Origin: a virus | Direction: 5' to 3' (one strand) | Virus record (IMG/VR): IMGVR_UViG_3300042309_001859 | Coordinates: 1-21,288 of that record | Length of the DNA stretch: 21,288 nucleotides | In this document: positions 9,775 through 19,734 of the stretch, piece after piece | Numbering within the stretch: the first letter of the stretch is position 1 | How the letters are laid out: each line of letters opens with the position of its first letter | Program-made: the position numbers and the translations under genes | Notes under the pieces: model-generated | What the model saw: only the letters and a program-made list of their open reading frames with translations | What the model was told of the DNA's origin: nothing | Databases searched by the model: none

Positions 9775-12700
9775 ATGCCGCCAAAAACACTTACGGCGGA
9801 ACAGGTCGCTGAGATTGACGGCAAGCAGCAGAAGCCGGTCAATTGGAGCGCCGTAATTCCGCAAAAGGAAGATGTTCTGACCGCCCGCGTTAATCGCGAG
9901 GCGGCGCGTCAGGATGCTCCCGCCATGCTGACGGCCGAGCAGACTGACGCTGCAGAGGCGCAGAACAGCGTGGCGGCTGAGACGTCTTTTGGCCTCGCTA
10001 TGGGCGCTCGCCCTGACCGCTCGGTCGGCCCTCAAGTCCCTGCGCCCAAGAAGGTGCTTTCCGCCGCGGAGGTAGACCAAGCGGACTACGAGCGGGTCGG
10101 CAACATTTCCTACATTCCCACCAAGGACGAGTGGAAGCGCTACAGCGAACTGCGCCAGCGCCGCGACGACAAGGTCGGCAAGTTCTTCGAGGCCGGTCAG
10201 GCTATTGCCGGTGGCCTTTTCCAAGCAGCGGCGGCGACGGCCTACGCTCCCTTTGACTTCGTCGCCCGCGGAACCAAAGCCTACGACGAGTGGGTCAACT
10301 CCTCCGCGGAGGGTATGCGCCAAGCCAGCATCAGCACCGCCGAGCTGTGGTCTTGGGCTAACGATGTCTACGACGACAACCAGCGCGAGCTGCAGCGCAA
10401 TCGCGCGATGAACGATCAGGTGCGCCAACGTCTAGCCGCGGAGAACCGATTCACCGGCAACCCGCAGCAGGATGAGGCCATTCTCGAAGAGTCCATCAAT
10501 CAGGCCAAGGCGCAGGGGCTTTACGAGAAGACACCGCAGGATCTTAACGAAGACGAGGACACCCAATACCAGCGCTTCATCCGCGACCGCTCGTTCCAGC
10601 AGCAGGCGGCGAACGTCACCGAGACCAACATCGGCACGCTGCCGGACGGCCGCGCGGAGATGGGCATCGATGAGTCGAAGCTCAACGAGGGTCTGGTGCT
10701 TGGCAGCGCACTTGTTTTAGATCCTCTAAACATTGCCATTCCGGCGGGCCTTGGCGCCGTTAACAAGGTCAGGTTGCTGCGCCGCGTTGGCAGTCTCGCG
10801 GGCACACCGCTCAAGGGTGCGTCGAAGGTTGCCGGTTACGCGGCAGGCAAAGCAGAGGCTGGCTACGGCAGAATTGTCGAGGGCATTGAATCCGCGACCG
10901 GCCTGACCGGCTCGCAGCAGATGTCCGCCCTGAGCAGTGTTTCATTCAAGGCGGCGGCGGCGATGGCCGCGCTGAAAAAGTCAGGTGCCGTTCTTCGGGC
11001 AACCGAGCGCGGACTAAAGACCGGCAGTATCCTCGCCCGCGAGATCGGCATCGGCGGTGTCGGTGCATCGCGCGTTGAAGCCGCAAGCAAGCTGCGCAGC
11101 GCTCCCATCCCTGAGCGCTACCGCCGTGCCTACGATGGCTTTTTCACCTCCGCGGACAGCACGCTGCGCCGCGTCAGCGAGACGCAAGGACTTTCACCCA
11201 TCGCCCGCCGGTCGGCCGCAACGCTCGACAAGCTGGGCGCCACGCAGGCATTTCGCCTAGCCGACGACGCAGTAAGCGGAGCGGCTGCGACGGCGCCCAT
11301 CGCCGTGCCGCTGGCAGCCATTGCGCCCGAAGAGCGCCAGCCGGAGATCCTTGGCGCGATCATGACTGTCGGCGCCGGTGCCGGTGTGATCGGCGGCAAG
11401 ATGCGCCGCATGTCGGAGTTCGACGACGCGCTGGTGGCCAAGATGCTGGCCGATGCAGAGATCTCCGGCGGCGACGCCACATCGATGGCCAACATGATGC
11501 CGCACGACAGGCTGGTCAACATGGCTCGCATGCAGTCGGTCATCTCGCCCAAGGCGGACTTTATTCCCCTGCGCGCTACGGACTACGAGATCAACACTAC
11601 GGTCAAGGAAGCTATGGGTCTCGGCACTCGCGGCATCTATGTTGACGCCAAGAAGGGCCAGCGCCCGCGTATCTTCGTCAACCTAGACAAGATGGCGACC
11701 GGCGACGTGGCTGGCCATGAGATCGGCCACGCCATCCTCAAGAGCGACATCCTCGGCGGCGAAGTGAAGCGCGGCATGCGCGCCATGGTTGACCAGCAGT
11801 ATGGCACCGATGGAGTCGCCGCCCGCGGACGCGAATACGTTACAGCGAGCCTCACGCAAGAGGTCCGAGACGGCACGACCGGCATCCAACTTGGCGTGCT
11901 CAAGCCTGATGAGGTGACGCGCATCGCCGCGGCCGGTGGTGACGAAGCGGCCGAGCAGGCGCTCAAGAATGAGTTCATCCGCGAGCGCTGGGCCAACGAC
12001 ACCGACTGGCGCAAGCAGGCCATCGAAGAGCGCGCCGACATGCTAAACCAAGAGCGCTTGGCGCAGGGCGAGATCTCTTGGGACTGGGCGCGCGACGAGA
12101 TTGCCGCGGAGACATTCAGCGGGCTTGGCAAGGGTCTCAACCTTTCCGGCATTCGTGCCAGTGGCCCGCTGAGTCGCGCGGTTGGCGCCGCCTCTGCAGG
12201 CTTCGAGGCGATGGGCGCTCGGATGCGTGGCAACGGCCGACTAGAGACACCCAACCGGCTCTTCGTGGAGAACCCGCTCTTCGACACGCCGGAGATGCGC
12301 AAGGCGGTCAACGACTACGTCAAGACGTTCGACCGGTATCTGGTCGGTCTGGAAAAGGAAGGCGCCGTCAAGCAGCGCGGCACGCCGATTGCTCCGACCG
12401 GCAAGGCTCAGGATGCGGCGCGAAGCCCGCACACGCGCACTTACAGTAACCGCAACGGCACAGTCATCGAGAGCGACCTGTTCATCGAGCGGCCGGACGG
12501 CACGCGGGTTCCGAAGTCGCAGCAGCAGCTCGACACTCAGGAGAAGGTCAGGGCGGCGACCATCAAGTCCATCAACGACCGCACCAAGTTCGTCAACGAG
12601 AACAGCGATGAGTGGGGCGCGCGGAAGTTGAGCAACGGCCGCGTCGAGGTTGGTGGACCCAACCTTCCGCTGCAGTTCGACCACTTTATCCAAGTGCCGG

Positions 12701-15621
12701 AGTGGCTGCGCAGCAAGGCGCGCGAGTTCGAGGCCGGTCGCTCCAAAGGCCGCAGCTATCTCTACAGCTACAACGCCATCGGAACCGGCGAGGCCGGAAG
12801 CTACAAGATCAAGAACCTCGGCAACGTCGAGGCCAAGACCGGCGAGATGGTTCCCTTCGGCTGGGCGGTCTCCACCAAGAACCACCTGCTGGCCAAGGTC
12901 ATCGATCTCAACTCGTTCCGCGCCGCGGCGATCCGCGCTATCGACAACGAGCAGCTCGGCGAGTTTGGCAACGACCTCCGCGCCGTGGAGTCCGGCTTAA
13001 AGCAGCTTCTCAGCAACTACGAGAACGGCGTTGCGGGCGAGACCGGCCTCGGCGTGACTCGCAAGAACATCCTCAACGGACTGCTCGGCACCGGCACCGT
13101 CGTCCAAAAGGCGAGCAACCCTGTGTGGCACACGCTGAACAACCAAGGCAGCGTCCGCACGTTCCGCTTCGACCGGCTCAACTATGCCGACCCTTACGGC
13201 ACCGGCTACTTCCCGCACTATCACAAGATCAACATCAACGCGCTGCCGGACGACGCCGGTCGCATGTCGCTGGATCAATACGGACAGTTCGACGCCGACC
13301 GCAAAGCCGCTTGGATGAACAAGGAGGCGGTGAAGCGCGGCTTTAGCAACGCGACCAATTGGCAGAACGCAGACGCGCAGGGATTCCAAGCGGCGGATGG
13401 GCAGTATCGGCGGCAGTTTCCGGCGGGTGGCGCGGCGTGGCGTGGAAACGCGATGCCGGATAACGAGCAGAGAGTCACTTCGTACCACCTAACAGACGAC
13501 CCTAACTTTTCGTTAGACAAAAACAGAAAGCCGCAAAACAACACAACGATTGGCGGAGACTGGCCAAACGCTGGTATTTTTGTCGGAAGCAGTGCCGAAA
13601 CGTGGTTCAACGGCTACAACTATGTCAGGCCATTTGTCGTTGAGCTTTCTCACCCGCCTATTGAATCGATGGGTTCGCGGGCAATGGCGGGAGGAGGATA
13701 CGGTGGCGAAAAATTTATCCCCGCAGAAGCGTTCGACAGCGTGGAGGTCCGTCGAATAATCCCATACGATGAATACGCCCGCGAAACATTTCGGGAGTTT
13801 GGGCCTATTGAAGAATATTCCGGCTTAGATTCTCAAGGAAATCGTTTGCCAGAGCCGATCGCAGAGGCTGGCACAATTTTTTCTCAACGGCCAAAAGACA
13901 GTCTTAAAAATTATCGCTACGCTGGCAAGGATGTCCGAGAAATGTCTGCGGCGCAGCGCAGGGCGTTGATCAAAAGAACCAATGACTACGCTCGCGGAAC
14001 TCGGCCCCACATATTTGCTGACCAACCAGCAGTCGCTCGGCGCGGGCAGGCGTTGCCGGATACGGACGGCTCGCAACAGACCGGATACGACAACACTTAT
14101 CTGAAGCAGGCGCTGGCTCAAGGCTCTGGCGGCATGGTGAAGCTGACGCGGCCAATAGGTCCGAACGAAGCGTTGCCGCTGCTGTCGCAGGTTCCGCAAA
14201 TCACACAGCGAGCCAGTAGCGGCAGCTTTGCCTTCGACCGGCCCGCCCTAGTTGAGTTTTACACGAACCAAGGACAGCCTGTTGCGTTTAAGTGGGATCC
14301 AGATGTCCTCGTTCGTCCACAATTCAAGGACATTGCCATCGAGCACGCAGGCAAACCAATTCAGCTTGCCATGGCCGACAGGCAGCAAGCCGTTGGTGGA
14401 GACATGGGTGGCGTCATGCATACCTATTTGAAATCACTGCGCGAGGTTCCGATTCAAGATCCGCTGACAGGACGCGAGCTGATTCCTGTCTGGGCCAACA
14501 ACGAGTGGAAGCCCGCCAAGGCAATGAAAGGCAAGGCCGCTCGCGGCGCCAAAGATTTGCTCGTTTACCTGATGGGTGAAACGGCGCACGGCTCAAACCT
14601 ACGCACCGTCCGCCGAATCTCGAACGAGATCGACAACGCGCCGCTCGCGGAAAAAGAAAAGGACGTGTTCCTCATCATTGCCAACAAGGGGGTAAAGCAG
14701 GCTCGCTCGCGCGAGTATCAGGCGGCAATTAAGTCGGCGACAACCAAGGCCGACAAGCTGAAGGAGCGGCTAAAGTCTTCCGACAGCAAGGACAAGGTGT
14801 CGATCAACAAGCAGCTTTCCCGCGTGACAAGAAGCATAGATGACGCGAGGGCCAAGCTGCCAAAATACAAGATTTCCCCCGAAGAGGAGGAATTTGCTGC
14901 TGTCGTCACAACCTATAGGAATGCCGGAACTCGCTACAGAAACGGAACAGGCACTCTCGAAGCCTTTCAGATGCGCGAGGAAGAGTTCTTCAAATACTTG
15001 GACGGATTCAAGCGGGTCAAGGTAGAAGAGAAGCAGCCCAACGGAAAAACGCGCGAGGTTTACAAATACAAACCGTCCGGCGCTTTCAAAAAGCTAGAGT
15101 CTAGCATTCACGGCAAGCACCTGATCAAGTTGGACAACACGTTTGACGGAAGAAAGGCCGCTGTTGAGGCGCTGCTGGGACTGAACATTAAGGGATTCAA
15201 CGTCGATCACGTTCTGCCAGAGACCGCGGACTTCCAAGGCGGGCGCATCAATCACATCGTCAGCAGCGTGGAGCTTTCCACCAACCCCGATCTGGGCGCG
15301 GTGTATCTGGGCGACGACCCGCAGCAGGCGAAGTTCATGACGCCACTTGAGGCTGCCGCGGCCAAGAAAATCAAGGCTTCCAACAAGTATGTCGTCCACG
15401 AAGCCTACTCATGGGTCATGCTTGGCCCGAAGGACGGCAACCACTTCCTCAACAGCAGCCCGAAAACCAACGAGGACTATTTCCCATGGTTCCGCCAGCG
15501 CTTCGCAGACACCAAAGCTGATCCGGTCAAGCGCGACAATATCCTGACCGCGAGCGATACAAGCCTCATCAACACCATGAGAGACCAGACCCTATTTCCC
15601 CTTGTAATGCCCGCAAAGTAG
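9775..15621 (+). CDS. Giant multidomain ejected virion protein with HEIGH metallopeptidase motif
   Basis: 1948 residues, by far the largest gene. The N-terminus carries short repeats of the LTAEQ/LSAAEV type (near 5, 50 and 100). Hydrophobic Gly/Ala-rich stretches near 305-330 and 500-545 could insert into membranes. HEIGHAIL at 648-655 is a zinc-peptidase HExxH motif, with E775 and E779 (DEIAAETF) as possible third ligands. Residues ~1233-1355 (SYHLTDDPNFSLDKNR...) look like an ADP-ribosyltransferase-type or similar small toxin/effector fold. TIFSQRP near 1367 resembles linkers in large polyvalent phage proteins. A coiled coil lies at ~1650-1700, and a C-terminal domain has NVDHVLP (H1812) plus a nearby NHI, suggestive of an HNH-like centre. 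Probable cargo ejected with the DNA to act in the envelope and cytoplasm. Domain functions after the HExxH motif are tentative. Confidence 0.75.
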   Translation: MPPKTLTAEQVAEIDGKQQKPVNWSAVIPQKEDVLTARVNREAARQDAPAMLTAEQTDAAEAQNSVAAETSFGLAMGARPDRSVGPQVPAPKKVLSAAEVDQADYERVGNISYIPTKDEWKRYSELRQRRDDKVGKFFEAGQAIAGGLFQAAAATAYAPFDFVARGTKAYDEWVNSSAEGMRQASISTAELWSWANDVYDDNQRELQRNRAMNDQVRQRLAAENRFTGNPQQDEAILEESINQAKAQGLYEKTPQDLNEDEDTQYQRFIRDRSFQQQAANVTETNIGTLPDGRAEMGIDESKLNEGLVLGSALVLDPLNIAIPAGLGAVNKVRLLRRVGSLAGTPLKGASKVAGYAAGKAEAGYGRIVEGIESATGLTGSQQMSALSSVSFKAAAAMAALKKSGAVLRATERGLKTGSILAREIGIGGVGASRVEAASKLRSAPIPERYRRAYDGFFTSADSTLRRVSETQGLSPIARRSAATLDKLGATQAFRLADDAVSGAAATAPIAVPLAAIAPEERQPEILGAIMTVGAGAGVIGGKMRRMSEFDDALVAKMLADAEISGGDATSMANMMPHDRLVNMARMQSVISPKADFIPLRATDYEINTTVKEAMGLGTRGIYVDAKKGQRPRIFVNLDKMATGDVAGHEIGHAILKSDILGGEVKRGMRAMVDQQYGTDGVAARGREYVTASLTQEVRDGTTGIQLGVLKPDEVTRIAAAGGDEAAEQALKNEFIRERWANDTDWRKQAIEERADMLNQERLAQGEISWDWARDEIAAETFSGLGKGLNLSGIRASGPLSRAVGAASAGFEAMGARMRGNGRLETPNRLFVENPLFDTPEMRKAVNDYVKTFDRYLVGLEKEGAVKQRGTPIAPTGKAQDAARSPHTRTYSNRNGTVIESDLFIERPDGTRVPKSQQQLDTQEKVRAATIKSINDRTKFVNENSDEWGARKLSNGRVEVGGPNLPLQFDHFIQVPEWLRSKAREFEAGRSKGRSYLYSYNAIGTGEAGSYKIKNLGNVEAKTGEMVPFGWAVSTKNHLLAKVIDLNSFRAAAIRAIDNEQLGEFGNDLRAVESGLKQLLSNYENGVAGETGLGVTRKNILNGLLGTGTVVQKASNPVWHTLNNQGSVRTFRFDRLNYADPYGTGYFPHYHKININALPDDAGRMSLDQYGQFDADRKAAWMNKEAVKRGFSNATNWQNADAQGFQAADGQYRRQFPAGGAAWRGNAMPDNEQRVTSYHLTDDPNFSLDKNRKPQNNTTIGGDWPNAGIFVGSSAETWFNGYNYVRPFVVELSHPPIESMGSRAMAGGGYGGEKFIPAEAFDSVEVRRIIPYDEYARETFREFGPIEEYSGLDSQGNRLPEPIAEAGTIFSQRPKDSLKNYRYAGKDVREMSAAQRRALIKRTNDYARGTRPHIFADQPAVARRGQALPDTDGSQQTGYDNTYLKQALAQGSGGMVKLTRPIGPNEALPLLSQVPQITQRASSGSFAFDRPALVEFYTNQGQPVAFKWDPDVLVRPQFKDIAIEHAGKPIQLAMADRQQAVGGDMGGVMHTYLKSLREVPIQDPLTGRELIPVWANNEWKPAKAMKGKAARGAKDLLVYLMGETAHGSNLRTVRRISNEIDNAPLAEKEKDVFLIIANKGVKQARSREYQAAIKSATTKADKLKERLKSSDSKDKVSINKQLSRVTRSIDDARAKLPKYKISPEEEEFAAVVTTYRNAGTRYRNGTGTLEAFQMREEEFFKYLDGFKRVKVEEKQPNGKTREVYKYKPSGAFKKLESSIHGKHLIKLDNTFDGRKAAVEALLGLNIKGFNVDHVLPETADFQGGRINHIVSSVELSTNPDLGAVYLGDDPQQAKFMTPLEAAAAKKIKASNKYVVHEAYSWVMLGPKDGNHFLNSSPKTNEDYFPWFRQRFADTKADPVKRDNILTASDTSLINTMRDQTLFPLVMPAK

Positions 15622-15861: not shown

Positions 15862-16016
15862 CCTCTACGGCACCGCCCTCGGCCGGTCGGCCGCGTCACA
15901 AACAGACGACAATCGGTAGCGCTCCGACCGCCGCCGGTTGTAAAACCGTCAAAAACGGCACTGCCAGATAAGGTGCCAGAGTGCCCGCCAACCCGCATGA
16001 ATGCTGGGTCCGCAGA

Positions 16017-16056
16017 TGATTACAAATCAGGTGCTCTACCACTGAGCTATACCGGC
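16017..16056 (-). tRNA. 5' fragment of a tRNA-Thr(TGT) gene, probable att core
   Basis: Read on the minus strand from 16056, the sequence has a 7-nt acceptor arm (GCCGGTA), TA, a D stem GCTC/GAGC with loop AGTGGTA, then an anticodon stem CCTGA, loop TTTGTAA (anticodon TGT, Thr) and TCA of the 3' stem. After base 16017 the match to a tRNA stops: the stem should continue with GG but reads TC, and no TTCRA-type T loop or acceptor complement TACCGGC follows. So only the first 40 nt are tRNA-like. This is the expected form of an integrase target duplicated in attP, with strand exchange likely in or near the anticodon loop. It is not a complete tRNA gene. Confidence 0.8.
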
Positions 16057-16083: not shown

Positions 16084-16108
16084 GTCCGCACTTGTCCGCA
16101 TGTATCCG
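16084..16108 (+). promoter_or_regulatory. Phased GTCCG operator cluster A (upstream of int)
   Basis: GTCCGCA occurs at 16084 and 16094, and a third, weaker ATCCG at 16104, exactly 10 bp apart. It lies 109 bp upstream of the integrase start and 28 bp upstream of the tRNA fragment's 5' end on the other strand. The same motif with the same 10-bp spacing occurs in three other intergenic clusters beside regulatory genes. Probable binding site for the RHH protein encoded at 19133-19396. Confidence 0.6.
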
Positions 16109-17595: not shown

Positions 17596-17820
17596 TCAGC
17601 AGTAAGCCGCTTCCCTGCGGAGAATATGCGCCTCAATCTCCGCAACTTCTTCGGCGTATGGCAGGACATCGAGGTCCGCGCAGGCGTTGCGCACGCAACC
17701 ATCGCTCAGGCACTGGCGGCGCATCATCGAGAACAGCTCCGGCGAGTCAAAGACGCGACCGGCGAGGCGCAGGCCGGACCATGGGAAGGTGCCGGTGGCG
17801 AAGTAATCGTGGCGCATCAT
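17596..17820 (-). CDS. Cysteine-containing hypothetical protein, last gene of minus operon (74 aa)
   Basis: Chosen start ATG at 17820 overlaps the lipoprotein stop (ATGA), matching the coupling used by every other junction of this operon; a longer form from 17877 would run inside the upstream gene. The 74 residues start MMRHDYFATGTFPWSGLRLA and contain C-x4-C-x4-C (QCLSDGCVRNACADL) plus a C-terminal Cys, which could bind metal or form disulfides. No family recognised. Its partnership with the lipoprotein suggests a shared early or lysogenic function. Confidence 0.6.
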   Translation of the reverse strand: MMRHDYFATGTFPWSGLRLAGRVFDSPELFSMMRRQCLSDGCVRNACADLDVLPYAEEVAEIEAHILRREAAYC

Positions 17821-18200
17821 CGGACCTGCAGGGTTTGCGCGGTCTGTGGCGCCTTGGGTTGCGTCGCCGAGTACCAATGCGTGTAGCGCGGCACGCGCAG
17901 CAGCAGCCTCGACGGCACGCGGGAGCCGACCGGATACAGCGCCTCCTCGTAGCTCTGCGTATCGTGCGGGACGTACGCTTGGAAGCGTGTCGGCTTCTGC
18001 CAGTTGCCAAACTTGTCGGCGACGACCTTGAGCTGCAGCGGTGTGGTGCCGACATACTCCGCGTTCATGTAGATCACGGCGCCGGTCGGAATGCTGCGAA
18101 TGTCAATCGTCAGGACCGGCAGCGCCTGCTCGGTATTGTAGTCGTTGGGTGTGGCCGCGCAGCCTGCTAAGGCCAGCGCGAGGATGGCGAGCGGTCTCAT
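17817..18200 (-). CDS. Phage-encoded lipoprotein with PEGA-like domain
   Basis: 127 residues with a lipoprotein signal: MRPLAILALALAG|C, lipobox cysteine at residue 14. Right after it, residues ~29-60 (VLTIDIRSIPTGAVIYMNAE then YVGTTPLQLKV) match the general pattern of PEGA-type beta domains (S-x-P-x-G-A-x-V-Y-x-[ND]-x-x-x-x-G-x-T-P), which are surface or envelope associated. The C-terminal half is basic and Tyr-rich. ATGA overlaps link it to both neighbours. A lipoprotein made from an early-region operon is a plausible superinfection-exclusion or envelope-altering factor, but this is inference. The signal and lipobox are seen directly. Confidence 0.75.
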   Translation of the reverse strand: MRPLAILALALAGCAATPNDYNTEQALPVLTIDIRSIPTGAVIYMNAEYVGTTPLQLKVVADKFGNWQKPTRFQAYVPHDTQSYEEALYPVGSRVPSRLLLRVPRYTHWYSATQPKAPQTAQTLQVR

Positions 18201-18382
18201 GCGACCTCCTCGATGGGCAGCATGAGTTGCGGGTCCGCGGCTTCCTTGCGGGCGAGCTGCACCATGTGCGCGTGGCTGATGACCAGCTCGGTCAGCTTGA
18301 GCGCCGCCTGCAGATCGTAGTCATGGTCCGCGTTGAACGTGGCCGCGGACTGCGCGATGGCGTGGGTGTTGAGGGTGGTCAT
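18197..18382 (-). CDS. Small helical hypothetical protein (61 aa)
   Basis: 61 residues, starting with an ATG that overlaps the upstream stop and ending in a TGA that overlaps the lipoprotein ATG. It is mostly helical (DLQAALKLTELVISHAHMVQ then LARKEAADPQLM), with several His residues in its middle and an acidic end. No known motif or signal peptide. Its place in a tightly coupled operon makes it very likely a real gene. Function unknown. Confidence 0.65.
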   Translation of the reverse strand: MTTLNTHAIAQSAATFNADHDYDLQAALKLTELVISHAHMVQLARKEAADPQLMLPIEEVA

Positions 18383-18786
18383 TTTCCGAATGCCTTGCGC
18401 ACGCTGCGCTCGGTTATCTTGTAAATGATCTCTTTGTGGCGGTCGCTAACGCCGTCGAGGGCGAGTCCCTCGGCGAGCAGCTTGTCATGGGCACGCTTGC
18501 ACTCGGCCGGTGTGGCGGCGCGCAGGTGGTGCTTGTATTCCTCGGCCCACCAGTAGGCCAAGCCCATGTAGTCCGGCGTGCCGATCATGGCGTCATCGAT
18601 GCGGTGCAGGATCATGGTGGCGCGGAATGTCAGGCGCGCTCCGGTCGAGCTGCAGGACTCGCCCCACTCGCTCGGAGCGTAAGCGGTCAGCCGGTTGACG
18701 TATTTGCGGACCCGCAGGCGATTGGCTTCATATTCGCGCTCGGCTGCCGTTTGCTTGCTGTGCTTAGGTGCTGTTGTGTTTTTCAT
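18379..18786 (-). CDS. Basic hypothetical phage protein (135 aa)
   Basis: Start chosen at 18786 (MKNTTAPKHSKQTAAEREYE): a GGAG lies 12 nt upstream, and the longer frame from 18882 would overlap the 69-aa gene by 70 bases. It is 135 residues, with a basic helical N-terminus (AEREYEANRLRVRKYVNRLT), a Trp-rich middle (YMGLAYWWAEEYKHHLRAA) and a basic end (ITERSVRKAFGK) that could bind nucleic acid. I do not recognise a family. It is the second gene of the minus operon, 25 nt after the first. Confidence 0.65.
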   Translation of the reverse strand: MKNTTAPKHSKQTAAEREYEANRLRVRKYVNRLTAYAPSEWGESCSSTGARLTFRATMILHRIDDAMIGTPDYMGLAYWWAEEYKHHLRAATPAECKRAHDKLLAEGLALDGVSDRHKEIIYKITERSVRKAFGK

Positions 18787-18811
18787 ACTAGTGGTGATCT
18801 CCGGTTGGTGG

Positions 18812-19021
18812 TTAGGACGCAAGCTCGATGCGACGAGCGATGACGGCTTCCTCGGCCGCGTGCAGATCCATGGCGGTGCCATACAGGTCGGATAAGACGC
18901 GGTTGAACGCTTTGTTGTCCGGCAGGTAGCCGTCGTATTGCATCTGGTTGAGTTGGTCAGCGATGACCTCGACCATCTTGTAGAGGTGAGGCTTTATGTC
19001 GGTGTTGGTGTGTGTATTCAT
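18812..19021 (-). CDS. First gene of the minus operon, small helical protein (69 aa)
   Basis: 69 residues, MNTHTNTDIKPHLYKMVEVI onward, mostly helical (IADQLNQMQYDGYLPDNKAF; AMDLHAAEEAVIARRIELAS), no membrane segment. Its ATG at 19019-19021 lies 8 nt from the phased operator cluster B, which therefore occupies the space where an SD or promoter would be. As the first gene of a five-gene operon under that control, its product could be a small early regulator, but no DNA-binding motif is clear. Confidence 0.65.
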   Translation of the reverse strand: MNTHTNTDIKPHLYKMVEVIADQLNQMQYDGYLPDNKAFNRVLSDLYGTAMDLHAAEEAVIARRIELAS

Positions 19022-19029
19022 TACGAGTA

Positions 19030-19063
19030 GGACATTAGCGGACTTCTCCGGACATACAAGGAC
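19030..19063 (-). promoter_or_regulatory. Phased operator cluster B (minus operon)
   Basis: GGAC begins at 19030, 19040, 19050 and 19060: four copies at exactly 10 bp (GTCC on the minus strand). The third is CCGGAC. The cluster ends 8 nt before the start codon of the minus operon. It is the most regular of the four clusters. A TATGTC/CTGACG pair with 17-nt spacing overlapping it on the minus strand is a weak promoter candidate. Probable RHH repressor operator. Confidence 0.65.
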
Positions 19064-19132: not shown

Positions 19133-19396
19133 TCACCCTTCCGACAGGAATTGCTTCAGCTTTTCCTGCGTCCGGCGCAATTGGCCGACCGTGGCGTCGC
19201 GGAACTGTGGCGTGAGCGGGCCTCCGAATGCTTCCTCGCAGTCGAGGAAGAATTCGATGGCCATCTGCACATACCGGTTGTTCGAGACGCGGTGAGCGGG
19301 CGCGGCGCGATTGAGTCTGGCGTGTGTCTTGGGCAGCAGCGAGACGGTGACTTTTTTTCCGTCACGACGTGCCGCCGCCTTGGTTGTTGGTTTCAT
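19133..19396 (-). CDS. Ribbon-helix-helix DNA-binding regulator, probable phage repressor
   Basis: 87 residues from ATG at 19394-19396 (MKPTTKAAARRDGKK). Residues 15-52 have the RHH pattern: a short strand KKVTVSLL, then helix PKTHARLNRAAPAHRV, turn SNNR and helix YVQMAIEFFLDCEEA; this matches Arc/CopG/MetJ-type folds, which pair as dimers and put the strand into the major groove (family knowledge). A charged C-terminal helix (VGQLRRTQEKLKQFL) could mediate higher-order contacts. Phased cluster C touches its start codon, indicating autoregulation. Diverging from the excisionase-like gene with shared operators between, it has the position of a lysogeny switch regulator. The longer frame to 19555 was rejected, since it would cover operators C and D. 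Confidence 0.75.
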   Translation of the reverse strand: MKPTTKAAARRDGKKVTVSLLPKTHARLNRAAPAHRVSNNRYVQMAIEFFLDCEEAFGGPLTPQFRDATVGQLRRTQEKLKQFLSEG

Positions 19397-19399
19397 AGC

Positions 19400-19424
19400 G
19401 TCCGCAAACGTCCGCTCTAGTCCG
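19400..19424 (+). promoter_or_regulatory. Phased operator cluster C (RHH gene, autoregulation)
   Basis: GTCCGC starts at 19400, 19410 and 19420, exactly 10 bp apart; a further GTC lies at 19431. The first copy is 3 nt from the RHH gene's ATG (19396, minus strand), so protein bound here would cover the translation start and any nearby promoter. No convincing SD is present in this span. Confidence 0.65.
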
Positions 19425-19497
19425 CACAAAGTCAACAATTGCCAACAGACCTCGCATGGGGTGTTCGCCCTATGACGCGCCACCCCGAAAAAACCCC

Positions 19498-19526
19498 TTG
19501 CCATTTGTCCGCACTTGTCCGATAAC
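19498..19526 (+). promoter_or_regulatory. Sigma70-type promoter for the excisionase-like operon
   Basis: TTGCCA (19498-19503) and GATAAC (19521-19526) are separated by exactly 17 nt; they match TTGACA at 5 of 6 and TATAAT at 4 of 6 positions. The -10 ends 16 nt before ATG 19543. Two of the phased GTCC motifs (19507, 19517) occupy the spacer, so bound repressor would block polymerase. Confidence 0.6.
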
Positions 19527-19534
19527 ACCGGACA
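19507..19534 (+). promoter_or_regulatory. Phased operator cluster D over the promoter
   Basis: GTCCG at 19507 and 19517 (10 bp apart), then an inverted copy CGGAC at 19529-19533. The second and third form a 6-bp inverted repeat TGTCCG/CGGACA (19516-19521 and 19529-19534) around 7 nt. The cluster covers the spacer, -10 and start region of the promoter at 19498-19526. Confidence 0.65.
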
Positions 19535-19542
19535 TTCAAGCC

Positions 19543-19734
19543 ATGACACCACCACTTGTCCTCACCGTAACCGAAGCGGCCAAAGCCGTCCGCTGCCGCC
19601 GCACAGTCCTCGAAAACTTCATCCGCACCGGAGAACTCACCGCGTTCTCGGTCGGCGGACAACGAGGAACGCGCATCTCCCACCGTGCGCTCGAAGCCTT
19701 CATGACCAAGCGCGCCCTGCGCACCAGCAAGTAG
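19543..19734 (+). CDS. Excisionase/MerR-like small HTH protein
   Basis: 63 residues, MTPPLVLTVTEAAKAVRCRR onward. The segment LTVTEAAKAV..RRTVLENFIRTGELTAF then RGTRISHRALEAFM is the winged-helix pattern of the excisionase family (helix_turn_helix_17): 'T-x-x-E-A-A', a recognition helix, 'G-x-L-x-A-x' and 'I-x-x-x-x-L-x-x-[FW]'. Such proteins bend DNA at attachment sites (Xis) or act as small regulators (Cro/Cox-like). It is divergent from the RHH gene and leads an operon of tiny genes. The start at 19543 is chosen because an upstream start at 19456 would put the promoter and operators inside the coding region. Xis versus Cro-like role cannot be decided from sequence. Confidence 0.75.
   Translation: MTPPLVLTVTEAAKAVRCRRTVLENFIRTGELTAFSVGGQRGTRISHRALEAFMTKRALRTSK

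Follow-up and report, generated by a model that had tools for sequence, protein, structure and literature searches.

The question raised by this locus is whether a small protein of the ribbon-helix-helix (RHH) type can take the place of a CI-like protein as the master repressor of a temperate phage. The window, meaning the whole stretch of DNA analysed, is a 21,288-base virus record (IMG/VR IMGVR_UViG_3300042309_001859). A sequence-only reading of it had proposed an 87-aa protein, encoded divergently from an excisionase-like gene, as the likely master repressor. This proposal was followed up by profile searches, structure prediction, operator matrices and comparison with related loci.

Relatives of the RHH protein were found on 56 IMG/VR contigs, and its gene was single copy in all 14 near-complete genomes checked. 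Two relatives of about 40.5 kb look like closed genomes because their ends overlap by 123-127 bases. Both encode an integrase, an excisionase, a DnaB-like helicase, a T7-type SSB and a very large virion protein, together with a portal and TerL (the helicase, portal and TerL were named by inspection). The layout comprises leftward genes running from the RHH gene toward int and a rightward early operon beginning with xis. The presence of int, xis and attP marks the phage as temperate. Isolate phages gave no match to the RHH protein (tblastn, E up to 1), and the reference genomes searched with the RHH protein and the integrase held no relative, so neither a host nor an integrated prophage was seen. 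The sole match in a search with TerL was Phage C75C1 (33%), in which no integrase is annotated. The window thus belongs to a temperate phage group without a close isolate relative. The attP core is flanked by TGCC(A/G)GA repeats, which are possible integrase arm sites, and other group members have different tRNA-like attP cores. A 1,948-aa open reading frame (9775-15621) located between virion genes has no Pfam or PHROG match and has counterparts of 2,151 aa and 2,310 aa in relatives; its product is probably an ejected internal virion protein. The features of the window are listed in Table 1.

Table 1 Features of the integration, accessory and switch regions of the window
Feature	Position	Strand	Evidence
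attP core, tRNA-Thr(TGT)-like (5' half of the gene)	16016..16056	.	Conserved in 12-locus alignment; tRNA identity by eye
GTCC-GTCC-ATCC array between attP core and int	16084..16107	+	Sequence; locus alignment
Tyrosine integrase, 373 aa	16217..17338	+	PF00589 E=5e-9; phrog_1 E=2e-22
Lipoprotein with PEGA domain, 127 aa	17817..18200	-	PEGA E=1.2e-5; 39 relatives
Conserved leftward gene, 61 aa	18197..18382	-	30 relatives in group; no Pfam match
Second leftward gene, 135 aa from internal ATG	18379..18786	-	ORF; Pfam scan
Putatively leaderless 69-aa gene, first of the leftward accessory genes	18812..19021	-	ATG 8 nt after last GTCC; no Pfam match
Candidate operator array, 4 GTCC units, overlapping promoter of first leftward gene	19030..19063	-	Sequence
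Putative RHH-family repressor gene, 87 aa	19133..19396	-	ORF; HicB profile; 56 related loci
Candidate operator array at RHH promoter, GTCC at 19400, 19410, 19420	19400..19423	+	Sequence; matrix score
Putative -35 TTGACT of RHH gene, 39 nt before ATG	19430..19435	-	TTGAC upstream of RHH gene in 54/54 loci
Conserved dyad GGGGTGTTCGCCC between divergent genes	19458..19470	.	GGG-N4..9-CCC upstream of -35 in 47/54 loci; null 5%
Putative xis/early promoter TTGCCA-17-GATAAC with GTCC at 19507, 19517 and inverted GGAC at 19530	19498..19533	+	Sequence; matrix score
Excisionase-like HTH_17 gene (Xis type X1A), first of rightward early operon	19543..19734	+	HTH_17 E=2e-8; phrog_66, phrog_2907

The 87-aa protein, which starts MKPTTKAAARRDGKKVTVSLLP, has the sequence pattern of an alternating strand (KKVTVSLL) followed by two helices, as the sequence-only reading had noted. 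A profile search placed the Pfam family HicB (PF05534) on residues 14-47 with E=4.1e-4, 0.4 bits under the cut-off; HicB was matched by 4 of 18 family members (best E=5.7e-5), and FitA-like_RHH was a weak match in two members (E 0.06). Alignment with CopG by hhalign, for which an approximate CopG sequence was used, covered the strand and both helices in 39 ungapped columns, at E=1e-3 and a probability of 22%. Matches in NCBIfam and PHROG were uninformative, and a PDB sequence search with the RHH profile returned no match. AlphaFold2 monomer models (pLDDT 64 and 59) placed helices at 22-31, 41-57 and 63-86 and left the strand unformed; the ribbon is missing from a single-chain model and would need a dimer. 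Foldseek and VIA-align searches from this low-confidence model gave no usable match, and this absence was not counted. The claimed strand-helix-helix pattern is therefore backed by the sequence and by a near-cut-off HicB match, while AlphaFold2 and the PDB search left the fold unconfirmed, and the protein is likely a member of the RHH class. In profile searches it matched neither an HTH_3-like nor an S24 domain, the features of a CI-type protein. RNA folding of its leader was no better than chance.

The layout described earlier was borne out, with the neighbouring gene matching HTH_17 and excisionase PHROGs on the opposite strand and the two arrays lying between both genes. In the window the arrays flank the divergent pair, and the RHH gene has a CI-like position with candidate operators between the switch promoters. 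Two further arrays, at the first leftward gene and beside attP, are additional to those noted before. The array at the RHH promoter scored 22.4 on the matrix of A-type units, against a 99% null of 5.7, and that at the early promoter scored 6.7, also above the 99% null. The TTGACT motif would be the -35 element of the RHH promoter; scanning the window region for strict sigma-70 promoters gave none. The GGG-N4..9-CCC dyad stands 2-3 or 22 bp from this -35 element, that is, at spacings two helical turns apart, and could be a site for an activator or a second regulator.

Runs of three GTCC units at exact 10-bp spacing are expected at 0.00-0.02 per record, and 2-5 were present in each of the window and five relatives. 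All group A loci in which the RHH start is present have an array there, and arrays are present at accessory promoters in 15 of 15. Among 2.9 million viral contigs, 21 match the full promoter-operator pattern, made up of 14 from this group and seven that carry one unrelated site. Those seven (L035 and six other contigs) have an identical, exact TTGAC-GTCC-GTCC-TAA-GTCC site in an unrelated phage, with a Cro-like gene nearby; the site was taken as a chance match because no start codon lies behind it and L035 lacks a second array.

The 24 accessory arrays of group A have one anatomy, TTG-4 nt-GTCC-6 nt-GTCC-2 nt-TAA-1 nt-GTCC with the ATG 8-9 nt further on, and in the window array at the first leftward gene the TTG stands 3 nt before the second unit. 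These arrays can be read as a -35 TTG(AC), a spacer of 16-17 bp and a -10 TAATGT, which would put the transcript start near the ATG. Genes behind the arrays vary widely and the array and first codons (MNTHTNT...) are kept. Among ten proteins of the region, Pfam returned matches for two: PEGA for the conserved lipoprotein and, below the threshold, Anti-TRAP for another. Variable small genes sharing the promoter-operator and the first codons MNTHTNTMGAANTTAAQ occur at 17596-19021 of the window and downstream of the RHH gene in L002-L015 and L089-L144, and the region ends in a conserved tail encoding the 61-aa protein, the PEGA lipoprotein and a 74-aa protein. The accessory region (17596-19021) looks like a cassette hot spot, and the cassettes are possibly anti-defence genes.

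The spacing and locations of the arrays would also fit an excisionase of the Apl type, and a comparison of RHH type with excisionase type was therefore needed. The reading at issue is that the HTH_17 excisionase is a dual regulator, like Apl or Cox, which binds all the arrays and has the RHH gene merely among its targets; in phage 186, Apl recognises direct repeats spaced by one helical turn, which lie at att and between the early promoters (PMC7498355). Distant relatives provide natural swaps: the excisionase is either X1, which has several subtypes, or the unrelated X2, and the RHH protein is of type A, A', B or C. GTCC operators accompany types A (KKVTVSLL) and A' (KSVTISLT), TGCCAACA operators accompany type B (SVFANIS), and GTCC-like operators accompany type C (SVHANLS). 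The B-type protein occurs alongside X1 in some phages and X2 in others. The operators at its own promoter and at the accessory promoters are the same in either background, and with the change from A to B the operators at both kinds of promoter go from GTCC to TGCCAACA whichever excisionase is present. Weight matrices built from accessory-promoter units were scored out of sample on RHH promoters: A and A' promoters reached 22-25 on the A matrix and at most 3.1 on the B matrix, and B promoters, in X1 and X2 backgrounds, reached 7.6-24.6 on the B matrix and at most 5.6 on the A matrix, a comparison in which the loci within each RHH type are related and which amounts to few independent events and not thirty. 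The attP array instead tracks the excisionase, being operator-like in most X1 phages and not in most X2 phages. In L098 (X2) it contains TTTGATCTGG repeats, and upstream of int in the X2 phages L098, L100, L123 and L127, TTGATCTGG repeats near attP replace the operator-like array; a direct test of attP repeat periodicity was significant in some X2 loci only. Since the operators co-vary with RHH type under either excisionase, the RHH protein is the likely binder of the promoter arrays, which are most likely its operators, and the attP array most likely belongs to the excisionase, so that the array between attP core and int in the window probably comprises excisionase sites. Against an excisionase that binds everything, X2 phages keep the promoter operators of X1B phages, which have the same RHH type, while their attP array differs; the comparison excludes the excisionase as promoter-array binder in X2 phages, and that reading as a whole is considered quite improbable. 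In X1 phages the attP array and the promoter operators do share a core, GTCC or, in B-type phages, TGCCAACA, which would allow for competition or a double role there. RHH repressor and excisionase may read one 10-bp site code in X1 phages, with lysogeny and excision set by competition between two unrelated folds: the RHH protein could occupy the attP sites of the excisionase and lock the prophage in, induction would supply excisionase that could compete for the operators, and a swap to X2 would break the link. This is put forward as a tentative idea with a modest chance of being correct.

Whether the RHH protein also maintains lysogeny depends in part on the lack of a rival repressor. The earlier statement that no other CI-like candidate is visible held when the search was widened to relatives, no regulator other than the RHH protein being recognisable at the CI position: Peptidase_S24, HTH_26 and Phage_CI_repr had no match over the cut-off in 15 near-complete or partial records, and HTH_3 had none in 25 records, including the two genomes closed by end overlap. 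CI-like candidates in G013 (an HTH_3 match of 13 bits, E=0.004) and in G020 (HTH_26, E=0.007) fell below the cut-off. A repressor of another fold could still be encoded elsewhere in the genome. Early-promoter operators are present in phages of the window type, in A', C, X1B, X1B2 and L122-L127 and in many B phages; they are weak in L089-L104, and no early-promoter operator was recognisable in L131-L138, a sub-lineage with a 74% identical RHH protein. This pattern leaves room for the main rival, an establishment-type shut-off comparable to Aca or to Reg of p576, in which the RHH protein ends a burst of accessory expression after infection, and some unrecognised factor of the phage or its host maintains lysogeny. 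Operators are indeed best conserved at the RHH and accessory promoters, which bear the same array type, the early promoter of L131-L138 fits this view, and another regulator could act at the conserved dyad next to the switch; Reg is itself an RHH repressor of its own and several establishment promoters (PMC8708921). Set against this are early-promoter operators in several independent lineages, the lack of another repressor family in the 15 near-complete or partial records and the switch-like placement of the RHH gene between divergent promoters. A shut-off of this kind is judged unlikely as the full account, and it may hold together with a role in lysogeny. The protein might alternatively be an antitoxin or a partition protein and the arrays autoregulatory or centromere sites. 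ParR-type and CopG-type RHH proteins bind short repeats, and the best profile matches here are to the antitoxin-type families HicB and FitA-like, but the gene adjacent to RHH varies from phage to phage, the scanned genes gave no toxin family match, integrase and attP are present with no visible partition genes, and the arrays overlap several separate promoters, all of which makes this reading very improbable.

The preferred reading is that the RHH protein is an autoregulated lysogeny repressor that also shuts off the leftward leaderless cassettes, which is rated somewhat better than an even chance. Within it, operator-binding autoregulation is well supported by the sequence comparisons and the function of lysogeny repressor is moderately supported. 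The claim of a master repressor is thus upheld as far as the sole regulator in the CI position and the co-varying operators go, and is weakened by L131-L138 with no visible early-promoter operator. From these comparisons we infer binding, repression, leaderless transcription and the control and maintenance of lysogeny as follows. The protein would be an autoregulated RHH-family repressor in place of lambda CI, with dimers aligned along promoter-overlapping arrays of 10-bp repeats. It would block three kinds of promoter: its own, the divergent one that drives xis and the replication operon (the pR equivalent), and the leftward ones toward int (the pL equivalent, split into leaderless cassettes that have one operator apiece). 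Upon infection every promoter would be free and the accessory and early genes on until the RHH protein accumulates, and in a lysogen it would keep both sets of genes off.

RHH proteins are known as side regulators in phages and as repressors of establishment genes on plasmids. If the preferred reading is true, an RHH protein as the only recognisable switch repressor would mean that a different fold can occupy the CI slot and act through modular 10-bp operator arrays, which also control a series of exchangeable small genes. Natural swaps of RHH protein and excisionase make specificity directly testable, and the common promoter-operator gives a handle for collecting uncharacterised, possibly anti-defence genes, as in archaeal viruses (PMC11065993).

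Compared with known systems, the locus resembles lambda CI with OR and OL in having its repressor gene between a divergent early promoter and leftward genes toward int, operators at both promoters and at its own, and a putative leaderless message; it differs in its DNA-binding family, the lack of a cleavable C-terminal domain, its tandem 10-bp direct-repeat operators and its leftward genes, which have individual promoters and operators. The P22 immI proteins Arc and Mnt are small RHH-class phage regulators that repress early promoters, as is proposed for the protein here. They control an antirepressor beside the separate, CI-kind C2 repressor (PMC7549136) and are ancillary, as had been pointed out, whereas near-complete relatives here showed no second repressor and the genes scanned included no antirepressor family. 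Reg of plasmid p576 (pLS20 family, clade II) represses its own and several other promoters through a repeated operator, but it belongs to a conjugative plasmid, its operators flank the promoters and it controls neither an early lytic operon nor an integrase. Apl of 186 shares the direct repeats at att and switch promoters, but there one excisionase binds both, while here the promoter arrays track the RHH protein and the attP array the excisionase. The early anti-defence regulon of archaeal viruses (Aca8) also places many small genes of unknown function after a single repeated promoter-operator, and one regulator is proposed to shut them off (PMC11065993); this regulator is a predicted winged-helix protein, and there is no lysogeny switch. 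MrpR of prophage SPbeta is a master repressor outside the CI class that works through SPBRE, an element repeated at several promoters (PMC10516654), and differs in its tyrosine-recombinase fold and 15 bp element. The locus is made of ordinary parts in an unusual wiring, for which Arc/Mnt, Reg of p576 and Apl are the precedents.
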